DNA of 35,894 nt. Source: a virus. Below, piece by piece: positions 9,851-28,309 of the stretch (its first letter is position 1; each line of letters opens with the position of its first letter). The notes under the pieces were generated by a model. The model ran no database searches. It was not told the DNA's origin and saw only the letters and a list, made by a program, of their open reading frames with translations. Location: positions 1 to 35,894 of IMG/VR virus record IMGVR_UViG_3300013126_000109; one strand, 5' to 3'. A program made the translations under genes and the position numbers.

Positions 9851-10921
9851 TTACTCTTGTGTTTCGCTTAGAACGTCATATATTTCAAAACGTCCGCCCA
9901 TTCTTTCGTAGACTAGACCTGCATATACTTCTGCTTTAGTTGCTTCAGTAAATTTCTTTTGAGCTACTCGAGTAGCCCAATCAAACAATGCCTTGTCTAA
10001 TGGATCTATGGCCTGTTGTCCGCCGCTTTCGATAACCAATTTCATCATTTCTCGGAAGTTTGTAGGCATTTCAACTGATTCAGAAACAACTTTCTTAGAA
10101 GTCTTTACAGACTCATTTTTCTTGCCAAAATATTTTTCTTGTGCAGCACTCATACCTTTCTTACCGGTTTCTTTTTTGTCTCCACCTTTGTCCTTAGCAG
10201 CCGACTTCATTGGTTCTTTCTTGTTACCGTCTTTGTCTAAGTCTAAGAAGTCTGGCTTTGAACCTTCATCCATCTTCTTATCTTTTTTAGCCATCTTGTC
10301 TTTTTTGGCTTCTACCATAGAATCAAATTTCTTTTGAAACTTGTCCTTGTCTAATTCAGCAGCTTCCATCTTGTGACGTGTTACTGAACCTTTACCGTGT
10401 TTCTTTTCGTAATCTTTCGAAGCTTTATCTTGTTCTTTATCTTTAGCTTTCTGTTCGCGTCTTTCAGCGCCAGTCATTCCTGATTTTTCTTTTTTCTTTG
10501 GCTCTTCTTGATGATCGCTGCCATCATAGTCTGCGCCATATTTGCCCTTGTGAACATATTTTCCGTCTTTGGATTCATATTCATTTAATGCTTCGTCATC
10601 ATTCTCAGCTGATTCTTCTTTCTTTTTGGCAATTTTAGTAGCAGTGGCATGCATAACTTCTTCACCGCGTTTGCCATATCTTTTTTCAAATCCTTCTTTG
10701 TCTTTTTTCATAGACTTTACTACTTCTTCTTTCTTTTCTTTTTCTGCTTTAGACAATTTCTTTTCAGCGATTAAAGATTCAGTAAGAGGAGTAATACCTG
10801 CCAGAACTCTAAATTCTGTATCCTCGTCTAGTCTAAGAACTTCTTTTGGTTCTGTCAAAGGCTTTGATTCTGCCTGTACATCTAGCGAGTTGATTTTAGA
10901 AATAAGTGATTTGAAATCCAT
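9851..10921 (-). CDS. Lys/Glu-rich protein with processing-type sites, likely virion-internal
   Basis: 356 residues. The N-terminal 60 contain VLAGITPLTESLIAEKKLS, with I/L-x-E tripeptides (LIAE) like those cut by the T4 prohead protease gp21. Residues about 60-270 are very charged low complexity (AEKEKKEEVVKSMKKDKEGF), including DFLDLDKDGNKKEPMK, an EF-hand/dockerin-like acidic loop I associate with marine phage structural proteins. A folded C-terminal domain follows (FDWATRVAQKKFTEATKAEV, then YERMGGRFEIYDVL). It is the last gene before a terminator. A head core or internal protein is the best guess; no enzymatic motif is seen. Confidence 0.65.
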   Translation of the reverse strand: MDFKSLISKINSLDVQAESKPLTEPKEVLRLDEDTEFRVLAGITPLTESLIAEKKLSKAEKEKKEEVVKSMKKDKEGFEKRYGKRGEEVMHATATKIAKKKEESAENDDEALNEYESKDGKYVHKGKYGADYDGSDHQEEPKKKEKSGMTGAERREQKAKDKEQDKASKDYEKKHGKGSVTRHKMEAAELDKDKFQKKFDSMVEAKKDKMAKKDKKMDEGSKPDFLDLDKDGNKKEPMKSAAKDKGGDKKETGKKGMSAAQEKYFGKKNESVKTSKKVVSESVEMPTNFREMMKLVIESGGQQAIDPLDKALFDWATRVAQKKFTEATKAEVYAGLVYERMGGRFEIYDVLSETQE

Positions 10922-11238: not shown

Positions 11239-11496
11239 TTATCTCTGTATGAAATTACCTTCACCGAACAAACTAGCCTTGACATCTAGAGCATTTTTAG
11301 CTGTACCGTCTTTGTTTTTCGGCTGGGTTACTTTGGGTTGCGGCGGAGATTTAGTGCCACTTTTTCCAGGAGAACCGGTGTAACTTTTTTTACCTCTAGC
11401 TGGACCTGGACTAATATGTGGGTTCGGTACCGCAGCAATAGCACCTGCACTAGTGGCTCCGGCAGTTGCAGCTTCAAAAATTTCCTTTATCTTCAT
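11239..11496 (-). CDS. Small Gly/Ala/Pro-rich protein with capsid-targeting-like N-terminus
   Basis: 85 residues starting at the ATG at 11496 (MKIKEIFEAATAGATSAGAI). An ATG 7 codons upstream lies inside the previous gene and is less likely. MKIKEIFEA resembles the start of T4 internal proteins (MKTYQEFIAE). The rest is disordered: GPARGKKSYTGSPGKSGTKS, then basic. It probably enters the capsid or binds DNA; both are inference. The upstream stop lies 5 bases ahead. Confidence 0.6.
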   Translation of the reverse strand: MKIKEIFEAATAGATSAGAIAAVPNPHISPGPARGKKSYTGSPGKSGTKSPPQPKVTQPKNKDGTAKNALDVKASLFGEGNFIQR

Positions 11497-11500
11497 ACGA

Positions 11501-11701
11501 TTATTTACCGCGTCCACTTTTCATATTAGCACACCAATGATACATTTTGGCTCGTTCTCCGGATGCATTTTTAGCACGTTTTCTTAAATCAGTTACAGAA
11601 CCATTGCAACTAGCACCTGCTCGCTTTACTCGACCCGGCCTACTTTTGCCTTTGCGTTTACCGTCAGCAAAATTTTCATTTATAAACTCGTGTGCTCTCA
11701 T
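11501..11701 (-). CDS. Small basic protein with capsid-targeting-like N-terminus
   Basis: 66 residues: MRAHEFINENFADGKRKG, then SRPGRVKRAGASCNGSVTDL and MYHWCANMKSGRGK. The start closely mimics the T4 internal-protein capsid-targeting peptide (MKTYQEFIAE), with an INE tripeptide as a possible gp21-type cut site. The basic body with two Cys is a type I recognise in marine phages, where it also occurs as a module at the end of larger proteins. Its charge suggests DNA binding inside the head. It starts 3 bases after the IscA-like stop. Confidence 0.65.
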   Translation of the reverse strand: MRAHEFINENFADGKRKGKSRPGRVKRAGASCNGSVTDLRKRAKNASGERAKMYHWCANMKSGRGK

Positions 11702-11703
11702 TA

Positions 11704-12030
11704 TTAAACACTAAAACTGCTACCGCAACCACAGGTTGTTTGTGCGTTTGGGTTTTTAATACTAAAACTAGAACCTGTTAAATCTTCAGTATAGTCAATC
11801 ACTGCTCCTGTCATATATTGCATACTCATAGAATCAACAACCAGTTTCCATTTATCGTCTAATGATATTTCGAAATCGTCTTCGTTCTTTTCTTCGTCAA
11901 AGGTAAAGCCATATTGAAAACCTGAACACCCTCCGCCTTGAACAAATGTGCGAAGCATAAGGTTTGGATTGTTTTCATCAATCAATAAGTCTATGACTTT
12001 CTGTTTTGCATTTTCAGTTATTTCGACCAT
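11704..12030 (-). CDS. A-type iron-sulfur carrier (IscA/ErpA/HesB family)
   Basis: 108 residues, full length for the family. Conserved cysteines are Cys35 ([11 protein letters not shown]), Cys100 and Cys102 ([12 protein letters not shown]), the three residues that hold the transferred cluster. The remaining family signature ([20 protein letters not shown]) is intact, so the protein should be active. A-type carriers pass Fe-S clusters to apo-proteins in the host cytoplasm. AGGAGAT lies just before the ATG. It overlaps its upstream neighbour by 17 bases. With the ferredoxin at 25800 it points to phage interest in host iron-sulfur chemistry. Confidence 0.95.
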
Positions 12031-12235: not shown

Positions 12236-12964
12236 TTAATCATCGTCTTTATCTAAAATAGGAACTTTTTTGTAAGGGCTTTTATCAGAGTCCGGTTTGT
12301 CTTTTCCTGCCCATCCTAGACCTTCATCGTCATAGTCTGTTTTAGTATGTTTAATACCTTGTGCAGTTTTAGTAACGATACCGCCTTTGTGTGTTCTTGC
12401 TATTTCTTTACCATCTTCTTTTGCTATGCTTTCGGTCGCAGGAGCACCGGTTCTAGACACTTCCCATTTTTTACCAGTAGCTTGAGATTTTTTACGAGCC
12501 CAATCTTGTAGTTTATAATACTGATTCATTTCTCTTTCGTCATCTGCATAATATCCGTTACCACGAAATACTTTCCATAACTTGCCGTTGATATAGACTG
12601 CCATATTGTTGGGCGGTTCAGTATTTCCTTCATCCCAATCTTCTGGATCTCTTATTCTTTCTGACATACCTTTACTCTTTGCTTCTTTTTCTAGATCTGC
12701 TTTACGTTGCATTATTGCTTGTTTGATCTGTTTATCTTGTGCAGCGATAGGATCCATCTGTAAATCTTGCAGAGCTTTACGTTTTGCCTGCAGATCTCCT
12801 TTATCTCTAAGTTCTGTTTCAGAAACAGATTTACCTTTGTGCTTCTCGTAACCTTGCTTTTGTTCTTTTTTCTTATCTCGATGTGCGCCAGCGCCAGATG
12901 TTTGTTGTTGACGAACTACAGGATTCCGCGGTTTACTTGCTGGTATAAATTCTTTTGCTTTCAT
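12236..12964 (-). CDS. Charged multi-segment protein, probably virion-associated
   Basis: 242 residues. It begins MKAKEFIPASKPRNPVVRQQ, again like the capsid-targeting start of T4 internal proteins. A basic low-complexity stretch follows (KKKEQKQGYEKHKGKSVSE). A short folded domain is visible around 120-175 (MAVYINGKLWKVFRGNGYYA, then LQDWARKKSQATGKKWEVSR), a module I recognise in marine phages. The tail is charged (YDDEGLGWAGKDKPDSDKS). Its start overlaps the nucleotidyltransferase stop by 4 bases. Function unknown. Confidence 0.65.
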   Translation of the reverse strand: MKAKEFIPASKPRNPVVRQQQTSGAGAHRDKKKEQKQGYEKHKGKSVSETELRDKGDLQAKRKALQDLQMDPIAAQDKQIKQAIMQRKADLEKEAKSKGMSERIRDPEDWDEGNTEPPNNMAVYINGKLWKVFRGNGYYADDEREMNQYYKLQDWARKKSQATGKKWEVSRTGAPATESIAKEDGKEIARTHKGGIVTKTAQGIKHTKTDYDDEGLGWAGKDKPDSDKSPYKKVPILDKDDD

Positions 12965-14199
12965 GATTTTCTACTCTGTTTAGGACCTTTTCGAGTCTTC
13001 CATTTTTTATCTGTTGAACAGTAATAACGTCCGTAACCTTCTTCGATGCTATCAATCATTGGATCGATGCCTCTGCTACGAACTCCGCCCCTCTTACGAA
13101 TTTTTGCTAATTCTTCTAGACCATGTCGAATCTGTTCAACATTCATTTTTAATTCATCGAACTGTTTTACCATAGTTTGCCATTCGCTAGGACTGGCTTT
13201 GTCTACACGACCGGCTAAATCTTTAATCTGTCCTGCTGCTCTCATCATGCGATATTTTAGTTTAGCAGGATTACCTCCTGCGCCATAAATCATAGGATCC
13301 ATAGGATCTGCAGGATCCAATTCAATAGGTGCTTCTTTTACTTCTTTCTTTTTCGGATATCCATGTCTAATATCTAATTGATATCCTTGTAATACTTGTT
13401 TATCTAATACTCCACTGATAAATTTTTCTGCATCTTTGGCATTATCAAACTTATCACCTAAATTATATTTTCTTACTTCTCCATCAATCATTACATAGGC
13501 AATAGTGATAGGTTTTACTGGTTCTTCAGCTGCTTGTGCCGGACTACCTAATAGATTAGCAGCGGCTAACGCAGCTCCTGCTATTTTTGATTTTATTCCC
13601 TCATCTACAGATTCAGAAATGCCCATACCTTTTCGAACAGCGGCGTATAATTTTTCTGCATATTGTCCAGCACCTGTAGCATCTGCAAATGCCTCTAGAT
13701 CCCCTCCAGCTGCCATTGCTCTAGCTCGACTGGCACTAATACCAGCTACACCTTCAGCACCATCTTCTCTTTCTCCGCTACTTCTAAAATCTAAAACATC
13801 AAATTTGTAATAACCATGAGCCTTGCCTTCAACTCCATTATACATCTCTAATAATTTTTTCATTGACTCCAATCTATCACTGCCTGCTACAAAAGTTGCT
13901 GCCCTATAACCTTGATCGTAAAGATAACTAGCAATTTTAACAGGAGTATTTAGACTAGAATCTTCAACTACGGCTTGAGCGTGTTCGGGAATCATAGCTT
14001 TGATAAATTTAATTTTAGTTGAATAGTCTAATGGATTGTCTTTTTTATCTTGACTAGGACTTACAAAAATTTTATAATCTCCGCCGACTTTGGCAGCAGT
14101 ATCCAATAGTTGTTTATGTCCTAAGGTAGGAGGATTGAGCCTTCCAAATACGAAAGTGATATGTTTAGTCTCAGCTTCGAAAAGTTCTAAAAGTTTCAT
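12961..14199 (-). CDS. Nucleotidyltransferase fused to phage virion-type modules
   Basis: 412 residues. Residues 12-190 form a HIGH-type nucleotidyltransferase: FVFGRLNPPTLGHKQLL (Thr25-x-Gly27-His28 as the T/HxGH site) and GISASRARAMAAGG at 153-166 (the ISxSxxR site), similar to NMN or pantetheine adenylyltransferases. The first residues MKLLELFEAE mimic a capsid-targeting peptide. A hydrophobic Ala-rich segment (KIAGAALAAANLLGSPAQAA) lies at about 205-224. A helical region (about 280-380) follows, and the end is GRYYCSTDKKWKTRKGPKQS, a tail module I recognise in marine phage proteins. Fusion of an enzyme with these parts suggests it is packaged and injected; that is inference. Substrate unknown. 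Confidence 0.75.
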   Translation of the reverse strand: MKLLELFEAETKHITFVFGRLNPPTLGHKQLLDTAAKVGGDYKIFVSPSQDKKDNPLDYSTKIKFIKAMIPEHAQAVVEDSSLNTPVKIASYLYDQGYRAATFVAGSDRLESMKKLLEMYNGVEGKAHGYYKFDVLDFRSSGEREDGAEGVAGISASRARAMAAGGDLEAFADATGAGQYAEKLYAAVRKGMGISESVDEGIKSKIAGAALAAANLLGSPAQAAEEPVKPITIAYVMIDGEVRKYNLGDKFDNAKDAEKFISGVLDKQVLQGYQLDIRHGYPKKKEVKEAPIELDPADPMDPMIYGAGGNPAKLKYRMMRAAGQIKDLAGRVDKASPSEWQTMVKQFDELKMNVEQIRHGLEELAKIRKRGGVRSRGIDPMIDSIEEGYGRYYCSTDKKWKTRKGPKQSRKS

Positions 14200-14538: not shown

Positions 14539-15129
14539 TTACCAGCTCCTGCAAGACCAATAACGTGCTTTCCAACGAGGTCCTGGATTTTTGCAGTTAT
14601 GACGTGCCCTAAAAGACTTACGTCTTTTAGGATTCGATTTCTTAATACGCATTTTTTTATCGCCAAAATTTACTTTAACGATATTACCATTGGGCTTGCG
14701 AACATAGACTTTTGATTTTTTTACATCGCCTGGTAGTTTTTTGCCTAAAGGAACATTCTTACCTCGATACTCGGCTTCGTCTATTTCTGAATTTTCTTCA
14801 ACACTTTCTTTTGGCACACAGTTTGGAACTGTGCGTCCGCCTTTTTTCTTTGTACCGACAGGTTTGTATCCTTTCCAACAAGGATTGTCTTTGGGATCTC
14901 GCAGTCCTTCGGAAAGTTCGCCGTCTAAAAATACAGTCCCGTTTTCTGTAAGATGAGTTAATCCAGTTTCGTCTAATTCTACGACGATTCCGTCTTCTGT
15001 GAATCCCACAACCTCAGTAACTACTTCTAAATCTGGGCTGAAGCTGAATCCTATCGAATCGCCTAACTCTGGGATAAGGGATTCTTGAGTGTTTTCAATT
15101 GATGTTAATTTGTCTAAAAGGTCTCTCAT
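14539..15129 (-). CDS. Cys- and Lys-rich virion-type phage protein
   Basis: 196 residues. It begins MRDLLDKLTSIENTQESL, another leader with an I-E site. A beta-rich domain (about 25-70) is followed by DNPCWKGYKPVGTKKKGGRT (with VPNCVPK after it) and by RKSFRARHNCKNPGPRWKAR, two short Cys/basic modules I recognise as recurring in marine phage proteins, often at protein ends. Overall charge at the C-terminus is strongly positive, suggesting DNA contact in the head. A late-type promoter and a start-occluding hairpin lie immediately upstream (15128-15161), supporting late, virion-related expression. Confidence 0.7.
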   Translation of the reverse strand: MRDLLDKLTSIENTQESLIPELGDSIGFSFSPDLEVVTEVVGFTEDGIVVELDETGLTHLTENGTVFLDGELSEGLRDPKDNPCWKGYKPVGTKKKGGRTVPNCVPKESVEENSEIDEAEYRGKNVPLGKKLPGDVKKSKVYVRKPNGNIVKVNFGDKKMRIKKSNPKRRKSFRARHNCKNPGPRWKARYWSCRSW

Positions 15130-15551: not shown

Positions 15552-16226
15552 TTATTTATCGACTACACTGTATTCATATACCCTGCCCATAGCTTCGTTG
15601 GCACGTAATTTCAGCAACAGCAATGTATGTTCGTCTTGTACGTAAATGTATCGGCGATCCCAGTTCCAATTAGTATCAATAAACCATTTTTTTACTTTTT
15701 CAGATATTAAAATTTTAGGATTTTGTTGATCTAGCCAAGCAAGATATTTGTTTTTATTTGGTATGTCGTTTTTAAACTTATGAGGCAACAGATATACTTT
15801 GTATTTGTAAATCCCGTGCGGTAATTTTTGTACAGGAATCAAACCAGTATTAAGAATATCTAATTGATTATTATCTGGTATTGATATATAGGCGACTTTA
15901 TCTGATAGATCTTTATCAATAGAATCGCAAACAGTTTTATCGTTAGTATAGATATCAATTCTATTACTTTCAATTCTTTTAGCATAGGCATCTTTATCAT
16001 ATGAATTTAGAATACGTGCTAATTTAGTAATAGGTAATTTATTGTTATGTGCCTTAATAAGACTACTTTGTCTGTAACCGTTACCTTCGGGATAAGCTTC
16101 CTTATCAAAATCTACCAATTTTTCAATAGAATTAATTCTCATAACAGATATACCAGGTATCAACAGAGATACCTTATATACCCATTTATTGTAGAACTTT
16201 CTATTTGTATATTTTATTTTAGTCAT
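15552..16226 (-). CDS. Hypothetical phage protein
   Basis: 224 residues with no recognised domain. The N-terminus is basic (KIKYTNRKFYNKWVYKVSLL), followed by mixed alpha/beta and two lysine-rich segments. Near the C-terminus WFIDTNWNWDRRYIYVQDEH is followed by a Leu-rich helix (TLLLLKLRANEAMG), which suggests a folded domain. It overlaps the ClpA-like gene by 8 bases, so it probably belongs to the same operon. The function cannot be inferred. Confidence 0.65.
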   Translation of the reverse strand: MTKIKYTNRKFYNKWVYKVSLLIPGISVMRINSIEKLVDFDKEAYPEGNGYRQSSLIKAHNNKLPITKLARILNSYDKDAYAKRIESNRIDIYTNDKTVCDSIDKDLSDKVAYISIPDNNQLDILNTGLIPVQKLPHGIYKYKVYLLPHKFKNDIPNKNKYLAWLDQQNPKILISEKVKKWFIDTNWNWDRRYIYVQDEHTLLLLKLRANEAMGRVYEYSVVDK

Positions 16227-18540
16227 TTTCTAATAAAGGAATCGGCTCGCCTCTTTTCAAGGCCTTACGTTGTTCCTTGGTCAGTGTCATTTCTTTTTTA
16301 AAAAAAGAAAATGTTATGTCGCCGTCTTGTAAATTTATCAATGCTTTACCGCCTTCTTTCAGTTCCCCGAATAGCACTTGTCTACTTAACGGTGATTTAA
16401 TTTTATTATCAATCAGTCTAGCTAATGGTCGAGCACCCATCTTACTATCGTAACCTTTTTCAGCCAACCAAGTAATAACTTGCTGATCTGCAATGATTTC
16501 GATGTTCTTTTCTTTTATCTGTTGATTCAAATCAAAGATAAATTTCTCAACGATTTTTCTAACAGTTTCCTGTGATAGCTTGGTAAATTTAATCGTTGCA
16601 TCTAATCTATTCCTAAATTCAGGAGCAAAGAATTTTTTAACTGCCTTATCATCTTCACCATCCTTACTTAGATCACCGAAGCCAATAGTGTTCTTTTCGT
16701 TGTCGGCAGCACCTAAGTTACTGGTCATAATAAGAATGGTGTTACGACCATCTGCGACCTTGCCGTTACTACCGGTGACAAAACCGTTATCCATAAATTG
16801 GAGAAGAATGTTTGTTACATCGGGGTGAGCTTTTTCAATTTCGTCTAGGAGTAAAACACAATTTGGAGTTTCTTGTAGTTTGGTAATCAGTTGACCTGCA
16901 TTATCTTCATAACCCACATAACCAGGAGGTGCACCGATAAGTTTAGCTACACTGTGTTTTTCTTGATATTCACTCATATCGAATCTTACCAAGGGTAGGC
17001 CCATCTTCAAACTTAATTGTTTGGCAGTTTCTGTTTTACCGCAACCAGTAGGCCCAGCAAATAAGAAACAACCAATCGGTTTATTAGGTAACTTCATCCC
17101 TGCCTGTGCCACAAATATTTTGTCTAGCAAATTGTCTACCGCCGTATCTTGACCGTAGACAACTTCTTTCATTCCAGATTCTAGATCGGCAAGATTTTTA
17201 CTTTCTTTTTGCGCCACAGTTTCTAACGGCATATTGATCATCTTGCTTAATTCATAAGTGACCTGTTCAACATCGACTATTTGTTCAACGCCTTCCATTG
17301 TTTCGTCGTCTCGAAGTTTATATCTTGCTGATGCGCAATCGATAATATCAATGGCCTTGTCTGGAAGTTTTTTATCAGGCATATATTTTATAGATAATTT
17401 CACTGCCTGTTCGATCGCTGCTTCTGTGATCTTCACGTTATGATGTTTTTCATAGTATTTTTTAATACCTTTGATAATCTTCACTGTTACTTCGCTAGTT
17501 GGTTCATCTACTGTCACACGCTGGAATCTGCGCATCAATGCGCGATCTTTTTCAAAGTGCTTGCGATATTCTTCCCAGGTAGTGGAAGCAATAAGTTTAA
17601 TTACACCTTTGGTAAGGACAGGTTTCAAAATATTAGCTAGATCGTTGCTAGATTGATTAGCAGCACCTGCGCCTTGCATCATATGTGCTTCGTCGATGAA
17701 TAGGATAATTTTGCCTTTCTTTTCTAGTGCAGTAAGAACAGCTTTAATCCTTTCTTCAAAGTCACCTCGATATTTAGAACCAGCAAGCAATGAACTGATA
17801 TCTAAAGTATAGACTTGATGATCTTGAATAAACTTAGGAACCTTCTTTTCAAAGATCTTTCTTGCTAGACCTTCGGCAATCGCAGTTTTACCAACACCCG
17901 GCTCGCCAACCATTAGAACATTACATTTGTTTCTACGTGCTAATATGAGTTGAATTTTTTCCAGCTCTTCATCTCTACCAATAACAGGATCAATCTTACG
18001 TTGTTTAGCTTGTAAACTTAAATTTGTACAGAATTGGTTTATTATTCTTTCAATTTGATTAGGAGTCACTACTGCATTCTCGCTTTCATTTTCTTCGTCT
18101 TCCCCGGTTAACTGATCGTGGAAATGTTGAATAAATTTTTCTTTGTTTACTCCGCCCTTACTTAAAAAATAGAAAGCGAAAGAATTTTTTTCATTGAGAA
18201 TGCTTAGAATAACATCTATGATTTCAATTTTTTGTCTGCCACTAAACAAAACCTGTGAAAAACATCTATTCAATACTCTTTCTACTGAATTAGTTTTTTT
18301 AGGTCTACAATTTTCGTCTTCGGTTTTAATATCGCTTAGATTATTGATGATATAATTTTCTAAATTATTTTTAATAAAATTAACATCGGCACCAAATTGA
18401 TCTAAATGATTGAAGGATTTTTCGTCCAACATTATACTATATACTAGGTGTTCTAATGTTATGTATTCATGTTGATTTGATTTGGCTAATTCAATAGCAG
18501 TTTCGAAAATACTTTGAAGGCTCTTGCTAGGTTCAATCAT
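16219..18540 (-). CDS. ClpA-like AAA+ unfoldase
   Basis: 773 residues, close to E. coli ClpA (758). The N-terminal repeat domain (1-145) has the family's EHLVYSIM. AAA domain 1 has Walker A GEPGVGKT (212-219), Walker B ILFIDEAH (279-286) and arginine finger ALMRRF. AAA domain 2 has Walker A GPTGCGKT (496-503) and VLLLDEIEKAH (562-572). There is no ClpB-type middle domain. An IGF tripeptide at 619-621 (NTIGFGDLS) sits where ClpA has its ClpP-docking loop, so the protein could feed substrates to host ClpP; no ClpP gene is in the window. It starts at the stop of the deformylase gene, forming a DnaJ-deformylase-ClpA run. Both ATPase sites look intact. Confidence 0.95.
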   Translation of the reverse strand: MIEPSKSLQSIFETAIELAKSNQHEYITLEHLVYSIMLDEKSFNHLDQFGADVNFIKNNLENYIINNLSDIKTEDENCRPKKTNSVERVLNRCFSQVLFSGRQKIEIIDVILSILNEKNSFAFYFLSKGGVNKEKFIQHFHDQLTGEDEENESENAVVTPNQIERIINQFCTNLSLQAKQRKIDPVIGRDEELEKIQLILARRNKCNVLMVGEPGVGKTAIAEGLARKIFEKKVPKFIQDHQVYTLDISSLLAGSKYRGDFEERIKAVLTALEKKGKIILFIDEAHMMQGAGAANQSSNDLANILKPVLTKGVIKLIASTTWEEYRKHFEKDRALMRRFQRVTVDEPTSEVTVKIIKGIKKYYEKHHNVKITEAAIEQAVKLSIKYMPDKKLPDKAIDIIDCASARYKLRDDETMEGVEQIVDVEQVTYELSKMINMPLETVAQKESKNLADLESGMKEVVYGQDTAVDNLLDKIFVAQAGMKLPNKPIGCFLFAGPTGCGKTETAKQLSLKMGLPLVRFDMSEYQEKHSVAKLIGAPPGYVGYEDNAGQLITKLQETPNCVLLLDEIEKAHPDVTNILLQFMDNGFVTGSNGKVADGRNTILIMTSNLGAADNEKNTIGFGDLSKDGEDDKAVKKFFAPEFRNRLDATIKFTKLSQETVRKIVEKFIFDLNQQIKEKNIEIIADQQVITWLAEKGYDSKMGARPLARLIDNKIKSPLSRQVLFGELKEGGKALINLQDGDITFSFFKKEMTLTKEQRKALKRGEPIPLLEND

Positions 18541-19034
18541 TATTTTATTTTCCTTAATTTCTTCATTGCTAATTGTAACTTTAATTGACTTACTTTGTCA
18601 ACGAAACATATACCATCTAGATGATCATATTCGTGCTGGAAACATTTTGATAGATAACCATCAACTTTGATTTCTTTAATATTGCCCTTTGAATCTTGAT
18701 ACTCTGCAATAACCCATTGAGGACGTTTGATCATTAAAAACAATCCCGGATAACTTAAACAGCCTTCTTGATCTAACACAGTATCTTTACTGGTTTCAAT
18801 AATTTTAGGATTAAAAAGAGCGAAAGGTTCCGGAAATCCAGGTATTTTTTTACTGCCCATTACAAATACCCTCTTAGTAATGTTAATTTGATTGGCTGCT
18901 AATCCTATTCCGTTGTTGTTAATCATAAATTCGCAAAGACTATTTTCAAATAATTCAGGATCTCCATCTTTACTAAAATTCCAATCTGTGCTTTTTTCTA
19001 CAAGACTCTGATAGACGCCTAATTTAAATTCCAT
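18540..19034 (-). CDS. def: Peptide deformylase
   Basis: 164 residues with all three motifs: GIGLAANQ (42-49), EGCLSYPG (90-97, metal ligand Cys92) and HEYDH (134-138, ligands His134 and His138, catalytic Glu135). The enzyme removes the formyl group from new proteins. Phage copies are common in marine T4-like phages and are usually short, lacking the extra C-terminal helix; here about 25 residues follow HEYDH, so it is of that compact type. It overlaps the DnaJ gene by 11 bases and the ClpA gene by 1 base. Confidence 0.95.
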   Translation of the reverse strand: MEFKLGVYQSLVEKSTDWNFSKDGDPELFENSLCEFMINNNGIGLAANQINITKRVFVMGSKKIPGFPEPFALFNPKIIETSKDTVLDQEGCLSYPGLFLMIKRPQWVIAEYQDSKGNIKEIKVDGYLSKCFQHEYDHLDGICFVDKVSQLKLQLAMKKLRKIK

Positions 19035-19863
19035 TTTTTCTAATAGTCTCCAATAGATTTTTCTGTGATGCGTCCAAATTTCTAGGAATATCTATCTTTA
19101 TTTTCATTAAAAGATTACCGCGCTGCTTTGTTCGCATATTAGGCATACCCTCGCCTCGACAACTTAATACAGTTTCAGGTTGTGTACCTTGGGGTATAGT
19201 AATTGTAATGGTCTTATTATCAATCGTGGTTATATTTAAACTAGAACCTAAAATCGCATCCCAGACGCTGATTGTTTTTTCTATTATCAACGAATCCCCC
19301 TCTCGCCTAAATAGAGGATGCGGTCTTACCCTTATATTGACGATTAGATCGCCTGCTCGTAGATCCGGAATAGAATCGTCACCTATTCCGGAATATTTTA
19401 TCTGCTGACCATTATCTATTCCGGGAGGTATTTGTATATTGATTACTTTGTTTTTACCTCCCGGAATCCCTACCTCTGCATTGATTTCTTTCCCCGACAA
19501 CACATCTTCTAGAGTTAAATCTATGGTTATGTTTAGCGATTTATTTTTACGAACTGGTCGTTGATTAAATCCGAAACCAAATTGATTAAAAATGTCGTGT
19601 ATATTGTCTGATCCAAAATGGAACTCAAACGGGCCTTGATTCCAACTATGCCCTGTGTTTTGTGTATTAGGATCAATTCCGGAATCAATCATACGTTTTT
19701 TTTCCGGATCGCTGAGAGTTCTATAAGCTTCTTCAATTTCTTTGAATTTTTTCTCATCACCTCCGCGATCGGGGTGATGTTTCATAGCTAGACTTCTGTA
19801 AGCTTTTTTAATCTCTTCTTCGGAGGCCCCTCTTCTTAATCCTAATGTTTCGTAATAGCTCAT
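19024..19863 (-). CDS. DnaJ-family co-chaperone (no zinc finger)
   Basis: 279 residues. The J domain (1-65) includes HPD at 30-32 (MKHHPDRGGDEKKFKEIE). A Gly/Phe-rich linker follows (FGSDNIHDIFNQFGFGFNQ), then the two beta domains of the substrate-binding region (EDVLSGKEINAEVGIPGG; RVRPHPLFRREGDSLI; GDLIVNIRV). The CxxCxGxG zinc region of DnaJ is absent, making it like CbpA/class II J proteins. It would stimulate host DnaK. A stand-alone DnaJ is unusual in T4-like phages. It lies 5 bases after the oxygenase gene with only a weak Shine-Dalgarno, and leads the DnaJ-deformylase-ClpA run. Confidence 0.92.
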   Translation of the reverse strand: MSYYETLGLRRGASEEEIKKAYRSLAMKHHPDRGGDEKKFKEIEEAYRTLSDPEKKRMIDSGIDPNTQNTGHSWNQGPFEFHFGSDNIHDIFNQFGFGFNQRPVRKNKSLNITIDLTLEDVLSGKEINAEVGIPGGKNKVINIQIPPGIDNGQQIKYSGIGDDSIPDLRAGDLIVNIRVRPHPLFRREGDSLIIEKTISVWDAILGSSLNITTIDNKTITITIPQGTQPETVLSCRGEGMPNMRTKQRGNLLMKIKIDIPRNLDASQKNLLETIRKNGI

Positions 19864-27286: not shown

Positions 27287-27471
27287 TGTTTGTCCTTGAC
27301 ATTTCTATTGGTGTATTCGGAATTAGGATCAATGATTTTATATAAGTTGAAAGGTTTCCAGTACCTGTGTAATAAATTATTAATTATAATAACAGCTACA
27401 AACCAAACAATTAATCCTAACATTGCTAAAATGCTGCTGGCTAAAAATACAGCAGCTACGTCCATATTCAT
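27283..27471 (-). CDS. 62-residue single-span membrane protein
   Basis: An N-terminal span at 4-30 (DVAAVFLASSILAMLGLIVW plus FVAVIII) is followed by a charged soluble tail (LHRYWKPFNLYKIIDPNSEY). It starts in an ATGA overlap with the cytidylyltransferase and ends in another with the 55-residue ORF. Function unknown; the tail lies on the cytoplasmic side if the positive-inside rule holds. Confidence 0.65.
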   Translation of the reverse strand: MNMDVAAVFLASSILAMLGLIVWFVAVIIINNLLHRYWKPFNLYKIIDPNSEYTNRNVKDKQ

Positions 27472-27902
27472 TGTTTCAATCCTTTTTCTACTTCAGCGGC
27501 CACTACACGATTCCGTAGTTCTGTTGTTGAAAAGGAATGCTCCCGCCTATTAAAGTAAAACTCCATACCCTTGTTGATACATTCCCATTTGCCAGTAAAT
27601 TCTTTTTCGGCATATTCATCTCCTAATATTCTAACATTGATAGGATAAGAAAGCAAGATATCTACCAGATCTTTTTCTGTAGCATAGGGAATAACTTCAT
27701 CTACATATTTGCAGGCCTTGACCTGAACAAATCTTTCAAAGACACTTTGTACGGGTTTGTTTTTTTCTGTTGGACGATCAATAGTCGGATCAGTCTGTAA
27801 TCCTACGATAAGATAATCGCATTGTTTTTTGGCTTCCTCTAACATCAGAAGATGTCCGGCGTGGAACAAATCAAATGTTGAGCAGGTAAATCCGATCTTC
27901 AC
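27468..27902 (-). CDS. Cytidylyltransferase-family enzyme (TagD-like)
   Basis: 144 residues from a GTG at 27902 that overlaps the upstream stop (GTGA). An in-frame ATG nine codons earlier gives a longer form with a non-conserved extension. Family motifs are HAGH at about 14-17 (STFDLFHAGHLLMLEEAKK) and STTELR near the end (HSFSTTELRNRVV). It resembles glycerol-3-phosphate cytidylyltransferase, which makes CDP-glycerol, but the phage substrate is unknown. It sits among nucleotide-related genes (MazG-like upstream). Confidence 0.85.
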   Translation of the reverse strand: MKIGFTCSTFDLFHAGHLLMLEEAKKQCDYLIVGLQTDPTIDRPTEKNKPVQSVFERFVQVKACKYVDEVIPYATEKDLVDILLSYPINVRILGDEYAEKEFTGKWECINKGMEFYFNRREHSFSTTELRNRVVAAEVEKGLKQ

Positions 27903-28309
27903 AATACATCCATTTCCGGAGATATCCATCCGTTACCGTTAGATTTAGAAACGAAAGACTTTAAATTAGGTGCTTCCCAACCTAGAGGTTTAAGAACTTT
28001 ACCATCTTCACGTTTACGAACCTTACCAGTTTCTCGATCAATCTTGGCAAAGTTGGTTCGCATAACTTCTTTCCAAGCACCTTCGGCATCTGCACCCATA
28101 CTATGGATAGTGCCAATGGTAACAACAAGAATATCTATCAGAGCATCTAAAGTTTCTACACTGTCGTTGTTATCAATTGCAACAGCCAATTCTCTAGTTT
28201 CTTCTTGAATAAGTTTAAGATACATATTGAATTGAGATTGATTAAATGTGTCTGTGCTTTGATCACAGGCTTTCATAAATTTTTCTTGATCTCTAAAAGC
28301 ATTGGTCAT
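27899..28309 (-). CDS. MazG-like nucleotide pyrophosphohydrolase
   Basis: 136 residues. The helical all-alpha NTP pyrophosphatase pattern is visible: LIQEETRELAVAID (EExxEL metal-binding helix) and ETLDALIDILVVTIGTIHSM (ExxDxxxD-type second helix). The C-terminal RETGKVRKREDGKVLKPLGW is family-typical of phage MazG/PRA-PH relatives. These enzymes hydrolyse nucleoside triphosphates or related nucleotides; a role in tuning (p)ppGpp or dNTP pools is proposed in phages. The gene overlaps the cytidylyltransferase start by 4 bases. Confidence 0.85.
   Translation of the reverse strand: MTNAFRDQEKFMKACDQSTDTFNQSQFNMYLKLIQEETRELAVAIDNNDSVETLDALIDILVVTIGTIHSMGADAEGAWKEVMRTNFAKIDRETGKVRKREDGKVLKPLGWEAPNLKSFVSKSNGNGWISPEMDVL

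Follow-up and report, generated by a model that had tools for sequence, protein, structure and literature searches.

Organization of the locus

The stretch of DNA analysed here, hereafter the window, comprises 35,894 nucleotides of the IMG/VR record IMGVR_UViG_3300013126_000109, from a virus of aquatic bacteria. The first-pass annotation correctly placed an open reading frame (ORF) at positions 12961–14199; its product, encoded by the minus strand, has 412 residues, which we divide into a short leader, a nucleotidyltransferase domain and three C-terminal modules, B, C and D (Table 1). Megablast of positions 1–25000 of the window against cultured phages returned no match. The ORF that follows overlaps the end of the nucleotidyltransferase ORF by 4 bases (ATGA), and its counterpart in two related loci, L125 and L144, is fused to the nucleotidyltransferase ORF. 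Modules of three ORFs in the operon recur in virion proteins of isolates confirmed by mass spectrometry; among these ORFs are the one at 14539–15129, which matches S-SZBM1_139 (49% over 45 aa), a protein detected in virions (PMC9146016), and the one at 9851–10921, which matches S-SCSM1 ORF92 (47% over 58 aa, E = 3e-9). The leader of the small ORF at 11501–11701 is closer to T4 than that of the nucleotidyltransferase.

Other genes of the window include, inside the putative cargo operon, one for an IscA/ErpA-like small protein (11704–12030, minus strand; phrog_17776, E = 5e-43), its likeness to IscA being read from the Cys pattern; a proteostasis-like run at 16219–19863 (minus strand) comprising a ClpA-type ATPase (phrog_4871), a peptide-deformylase-like protein and a DnaJ-like protein; and, at 27468–27929 (minus strand), a second HIGH-type nucleotidyltransferase of 153 aa, nearest to the HldE C-domain and glycerol-3-phosphate cytidylyltransferase models at scores under the equivalog cut-offs.

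Table 1. Features of the nucleotidyltransferase ORF and its neighbours (window coordinates; ↓, putative cut)
Feature	Position	Strand	Basis
Whole ORF, putative cargo polyprotein NTase-B-C-D, 412 aa	12961..14199 (incl. stop)	-	Sequence, Pfam/phrog matches, architectures
Leader MKLLELFE, residues 1-8, capsid-targeting-like, LFE↓A candidate cut site	14176..14199	-	Homologues, T4 CTS
HIGH-type nucleotidyltransferase domain, residues 9-196, PPAT/NMNAT fold	13612..14175	-	Pfam, conservation, model
Residues 197-200, putative cut sites ISE196↓S and VDE200↓G	13600..13611	-	Motif, low pLDDT at 199-201
Module B, signal-peptide-like start, residues 201-223, GIKSKIAGAALAAANLLGSPAQA	13531..13599	-	Sequence; similar cassettes elsewhere
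Module B, folded part, residues 224-289, beta-beta-alpha-beta at 231-280, ends VKE289↓A	13333..13530	-	Model
Module C, residues 290-387, APIELDPADPMDPMIYG..., helical hairpin 311-376, ends IEE387↓G	13039..13332	-	Relatives, model
Module D, residues 388-412, GYGRYYCSTDKKWKTRKGPKQSRKS, basic, low-confidence/disordered	12964..13038	-	Relatives, model
Neighbour ORF, modules H (LSE↓GLRDPKDNPCWKGY) and G (IDE↓AEYRGKNVPLGKK...)	14539..15129	-	H common to S-SZBM1_139
Neighbour ORF, KPRN.. (weak DUF7230) and module E (MSE↓RIRDPEDWDEGNTEPPNN)	12236..12964	-	Pfam, relatives
Small ORF MRAHEFINE↓NFADGK..., T4-type leader directly before module F	11501..11701	-	Sequence
Small ORF MKIKEIFE↓AATAGATSAG..., leader, then presumed post-cut sequence of relatives' capsid protein	11239..11496	-	Sequence
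ORF with module MDE↓GSKPDFLDLDKDGNKKEPMK	9851..10921	-	Match to S-SCSM1 virion protein ORF92

The nucleotidyltransferase domain

An intact HIGH-type nucleotidyltransferase with the PPAT/NMNAT fold occupies the first ~195 residues. The motifs NPPTLGHK and GISASRAR, already pointed out in the first-pass annotation, are present, with the [T/H]xGH and ISxSxxR-like elements in the right order (NPPTLGH, ISASRAR), and a Pfam search placed PF01467 (CTP_transf_like) on residues 17–118 above its cut-off (E = 3e-5; 24.6 versus 21 bits). This match covers the N-terminal half only, as do those to phrog_3041 (‘cytidyltransferase’, 2e-44) and phrog_395 (7e-37). The active site, for which decay had been considered, is not degenerate, since N22, P23, P24, G27, H28, S155, A156 and R160 are invariant in the 21 relatives compared. 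The AlphaFold2 model has a pLDDT >90 over most of residues 12–195, and VIA comparisons with PPAT, NadD and NMNAT, made, as for Foldseek, with residues 11–195, gave Z scores of 12.5–14.1 at 2.8–3.4 Å over 145–163 residues. Adenylyltransferase activity is a very likely property of the domain. As to the substrate, the folds effectively tie (PPAT leads with Z 14.1, NadD at 13.5 and NMNAT at 13.0 being about 1 or less below) and none of the NCBIfam equivalogs passes its cut-off, the best NMNAT/NaMNAT model, NF006479, reaching 21 bits against 164. The earlier suggestion of an NAD-type substrate therefore does not stand as worded. By our estimate, NMN or NaMN is a possible substrate, phosphopantetheine a rather unlikely one, and the rest of the probability falls to some other compound. 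A sequence search of the PDB gave weak NMNAT and PPAT matches only.

Relatives are widespread. At E ≤ 1e-5 the protein matches 524 cultured phage records, mostly of Synechococcus and Prochlorococcus myoviruses, and in almost every case the match runs through roughly the N-terminal 200 residues; >500 viral contigs encode relatives as well.

A capsid-targeting-like leader and homologues in virions

The likeness of the N terminus to T4 internal proteins, claimed in the first-pass annotation, is real: MKLLELFEAE is laid out as the start of IPII and IPIII, which in the T4 record reads MKTYQEFIAE↓A. T4 gp21 cleaves after L/I-X-E, and the capsid-targeting sequence (CTS) corresponds to the first 10 residues of IPIII, where Asp at position 10 prevents processing (PMC9026906); the window protein has the same short N-terminal leader ending in L/I-X-E, here LFE↓A. 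Among 61 distinct homologues, 57 have [ILVMF]xE among their first ~12 residues, in leaders that otherwise vary widely (MLLNELFE↓A, MRINELFE↓A, MFLTELYE↓T, MKKFSEIIE↓A, MRFRQFIIE↓A). An automatic leader scan of the predicted genes of two relatives gave a weak excess (3 versus 0.8 and 5 versus 0.8), its regular expression having rejected leaders such as ELFE↓A, and was left out of the proof.

Virion presence, proposed earlier for the window protein, is documented for homologues. S-SZBM1_140 (362 aa) was found in purified virions with 2 peptides and 13.5% coverage (PMC9146016), S-SCSM1 ORF91 by mass spectrometry (PMC9602691) and S-CREM2 ORF154 with 3 peptides (PMC10665884). The window ORF matches the first of these at 34% identity over about 190 residues (E = 1e-32) and the second at 37% identity over about 190 residues (E = 1e-35), and both carry the leader (S-SZBM1 MRFRQFIIE↓A, S-SCSM1 MKSFLQFLKE↓A). 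In S-SCSM1, the genes around ORF91 (89, 90, 92 and 93) all have virion-protein annotations, and the S-SZBM1 gene next to S-SZBM1_140 (457 aa) is listed in the virion table (PMC9146016, Table 1). Packaging is well supported; that it proceeds through the leader is highly probable, and removal of the leader by gp21 is nearly as probable.

Exchangeable C-terminal modules

None of 50,697 cultured phage records contained a match to module B or C. In relatives, the C-terminal modules occur in many combinations: the nucleotidyltransferase (NT) chains comprise NT, NT-C, NT-B-C, NT-B-C-D, NT-C-B-D, NT-D, NT-C-D, NT-B-D, NT-C-E and NT-R, and chains without the enzyme comprise R-E, R-E-B, R-E-T and H-G. 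Module E belongs either to the nucleotidyltransferase protein or to its neighbour. Two long proteins with other N-terminal domains also end in these modules, one of 1133 aa (L044/L052) in C, B and D and one of 1041 aa (L042) in C-D. The first-pass annotation had described an enzyme joined to an Ala-rich hydrophobic stretch and a Lys-rich marine phage tail module. The Ala-rich stretch (residues 201–223) exists and recurs in other proteins; so does the Lys-rich end (residues 388–412), for which nothing ties it to a phage tail, and we rejected a role of the C-terminal modules as phage-tail parts for want of evidence, taking ‘tail’ as C-terminal. The annotation missed that the C-terminal parts are shuffled modules with prohead-protease-type borders, which suggest a processed polyprotein instead of a single fused structural enzyme.

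The long proteins (L044/L052 3817–7218; L042 3259–6384) have a phrog_19290-like N terminus with ‘GDIDTQI’, a ligase-like part (‘VKVDGFGARFG...YEGIILN’) and a second HIGH-type nucleotidyltransferase (GHxGHQQL) followed by modules C(-B)-D, the parts being separated by borders of the INE↓A and ISE↓A types; Pfam made no useful call on the fused 1133-aa L052 protein. The neighbour of the nucleotidyltransferase gene in cultured cyanophages (phrog_455; L100 1721–2914, S-SZBM1) carries a KWDG motif of ligase type, and the nucleotidyltransferase domain of the window protein is itself matched by the phrog_455 profile; on these grounds, the sequences suggest that the fusion partners in L042 and L052 correspond to split genes in cultured cyanophages.

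A protease-like motif at module borders

Module borders carry [LIV]xE↓[AGSN], the consensus of the T4 gp21 prohead protease. Borders were sought blindly, by all-against-all protein comparison, as the points at which proteins become alike while their upstream parts are unlike, and were clustered by downstream sequence, which gave 54 clusters and 995 border points with no motif assumed. Across the 54 clusters, the motif-free analysis gave its strongest enrichment (z = 7.4) for Glu at the first conserved position. Within the border zone, strict [LI]xE occurred in most contexts of 17 of the 54 clusters (4.3 expected) and [LIV]xE in 27 (6.5 expected), where some clusters are different entry points of one module and the independent modules number about a dozen; 100,000 simulations peaked at 15 and 19, respectively, and never reached the observed values. 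Strict [LI]xE alone had been weakly significant in an earlier, smaller border set (P = 0.011) and became strong in the larger one. A first statistic on raw BLAST ends (156/461 versus 75) was too fuzzy and was replaced by the refined borders.

Within module-bearing proteins, [LIV]xE[AGSTN] reaches 2.26 times the shuffled level (1.29 in other proteins), compared with 1.02–1.34 for control motifs with D, Q or K for E or with altered spacing. The window protein has such sites at E8↓A, E196↓S, E200↓G, E289↓A and E387↓G, plus one inside the fold, E79↓D, and model confidence falls at residues 199–201, 284–308 and 372–411. At P3, roughly every second internal border shows V, or in some cases M, residues that, to our knowledge, T4 gp21 has not been described as accepting. 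In a border set whose anchors were picked by eye, module F had a hydrophobic P3 in 24 of 36 contexts, some borders being without it, and the motif was absent from the border of the KPRNF module.

A shared block at capsid, leader and internal sites

Peptidase_S77 (gp21) and the Gp23 capsid protein are encoded in all four relatives that have head genes on the contig; gp21 is absent from the 36-kb window fragment. The capsid proteins of these four relatives read KYLAE↓SATAGATSAGN (KHLVE↓T in one), at a site equivalent to SFLTE↓A in T4 and SFLAE↓A in S-SCSM1, and by this analogy KYLAE↓S would mark the mature N terminus. In a small protein beside the relatives’ loci this block comes after the leader (MKIREIFE↓TATAGATSAGN), and in L053/L055 it follows an internal border (ESMQE↓TATAGATSAGN). 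Because one block thus occurs at the presumed capsid cut site, behind N-terminal leaders and at an internal border, the borders are probably protease sites, and we regard the shared ATAGATSAGN block as the best argument, one from sequence, for this reading.

Small proteins whose post-leader start copies the capsid post-cut sequence ([A/T]ATAGATSAG) form a family found at many loci, including L182 43121–43306. The S-SCSM1 virion protein ORF97 (61 aa) resembles the N terminus of the S-SCSM1 capsid protein (GPTAGYDP versus GPTAGFDP).

A proposed head-cargo polyprotein and its alternatives

We propose, with a probability of roughly 0.6, that the gene product is a CTS-targeted head-cargo polyprotein that is packaged into the prohead and cut into an enzyme and peptides. 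The N-terminal 8 residues, acting as the T4 capsid-targeting sequence does, would bring the chain into the prohead core, where the prohead protease (a gp21 homologue) would cut after Glu8 and further, most likely, after Glu196/200, Glu289 and Glu387, yielding a free nucleotidyltransferase, module B with its signal-peptide-like start, a helical piece (C) and a basic peptide (D). Judging from sequence, the odds modestly favour such internal cutting. The released enzyme and modules may remain with the packaged DNA and be ejected into the next host, where the enzyme would probably adenylylate, at an early stage of infection, a substrate resembling phosphopantetheine or nicotinamide mononucleotide, presumably to the benefit of the phage. 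Weighing against the proposal are the V or M at P3 of many borders, the borders that deviate from the motif, the redundancy among border clusters, the absence of gp21 from the 36-kb fragment and the small peptide numbers behind two of the virion detections.

A less probable reading, though the strongest competitor, holds that only the leader is removed, the rest being one multidomain inner-head protein in which each border [LIV]xE is a leader relic from ORF fusion. In its favour, the nucleotidyltransferase fusions of L125 and L144 keep the start of the next ORF inside the chain (MRSKEF../MRAKEF..), and a leader immediately precedes some modules that form ORFs of their own (F in the window; L026). 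A relic should decay evenly, however, and the other borders have lost the M-K/R..E-F/L pattern, yet P1 Glu is almost fixed and P3 is hydrophobic while P2 varies; the borders moreover fall in low-confidence linkers. It is improbable that the protein is an ordinary auxiliary metabolic enzyme of the infected cell, its detection in virions being carry-over and its C-terminal parts incidental mosaic tails. The authors of two of the virion studies allow for carry-over (PMC10665884, PMC9602691) and stand-alone forms of about 200–206 aa exist (for example, L106, L147 and L153), but these still have the leader, and genes next to those of the S-SCSM1 and S-SZBM1 enzymes are listed as encoding virion proteins. 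A protease-free reading, with the motif as a Glu-rich flexible linker that recombination favours, would suit the disordered borders rich in S, E and G but is very improbable, given that changing the Glu or the spacing removes most of the enrichment and that the same block lies at the capsid-protein cut position.

Relation to known systems

A virion-carried NMNAT-like enzyme, which the first-pass annotation had considered a novel takeover tool, has already been published (PMC9146016, PMC9602691, PMC10665884); what is new is the set of shuffled C-terminal modules with gp21-type borders. The cyanophage enzymes concerned (S-SZBM1_140, S-SCSM1 ORF91 and S-CREM2 ORF154; phrog_3041/phrog_395) share the homologous nucleotidyltransferase domain, and those of S-SZBM1 and S-SCSM1, like the window protein, have a T4-type leader and adjoin other virion-protein genes, whereas modules B and C lack cultured-phage counterparts and the papers propose no polyprotein. 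In the open-licence literature we found no T4-like phage for which cargo polyproteins with borders of the gp21 type are described, and the novelty is accordingly provisional.

T4 IPI–III and Alt, which are injected accessory proteins, likewise have a short N-terminal leader ending in L/I-X-E↓A, but the T4 internal proteins have one cargo per ORF, whereas the window protein strings together several modules that can be exchanged, each border bearing a site. Prohead proteases also cut T4 gp22, gp67 and gp68 and the phiKZ and SPN3US head proteins after Glu in a short motif, several times in gp22 and gp67; these are scaffold, shell and inner-body proteins, in contrast to a chain of an enzyme and small modules. 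The window scheme would work as T4 internal proteins combined with gp22-type multiple cutting. Polyvalent proteins, many-domain phage polypeptides thought to be injected, have been likened to polyproteins (Iyer et al. 2017, PMC5512222), and the window protein resembles them in holding several unrelated domains in one chain (NT-B-C-D and the other architectures). Their release was ascribed to an embedded peptidase domain (PMC5512222), whereas Pfam finds only PF01467 in the window protein and thus no embedded peptidase; that paper mentions neither ‘cyanophage’ nor ‘marine’.

If the polyprotein reading is correct, one address tag would deliver several proteins into the next host, and many odd mosaic ‘hypothetical’ proteins of marine and freshwater T4-like phages would be explained as strings of head cargo whose members act separately. 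A sequence rule, M[K/R]..[E/Q][F/L][I/L]xE-type leaders plus [LIV]xE↓[AGSN] borders, would then predict injected proteins and their mature ends, so that mass-spectrometry data already available for virions could be used to test what these phages inject.

Module B as a candidate export cassette

A cut after VDE200 would leave module B with the start GIKSKIAGAALAAANLLGSPAQA↓AEEP, which has a Lys-rich beginning, an Ala/Leu core and an AxA end. Similar K/R- and Ala-rich cassettes ending in AxA lie behind xE sites elsewhere (GWKDKLGAAALAGSLAFGAAGANA↓R, GWKDWVAGAAIGAAALGGHGDADA↓A and GWKEKLAGAALAGSMALGMGGNAQA↓H), the signal-peptide likeness of module B and of these cassettes being a pattern recognized by eye. 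Export of module B to the host envelope after injection is conceivable but doubtful on this pattern, and a role as ejection channel or membrane anchor is equally conceivable. Similarly speculative is the wider idea that early effectors of a whole family of aquatic T4-like phages are combinatorial polyproteins with one tag, whose modules are swapped freely at protease sites and in several of which the cut itself would create a new N-terminal Sec or Tat signal; virions would then carry effectors that, after injection, go to the host envelope. In L037 (5983–7452), a Tat-like twin-arginine sequence, SRRSFLRGAGALATGAALGATGANA, lies mid-chain at residues of about 200–230 and replaces the Sec-like start of module B.
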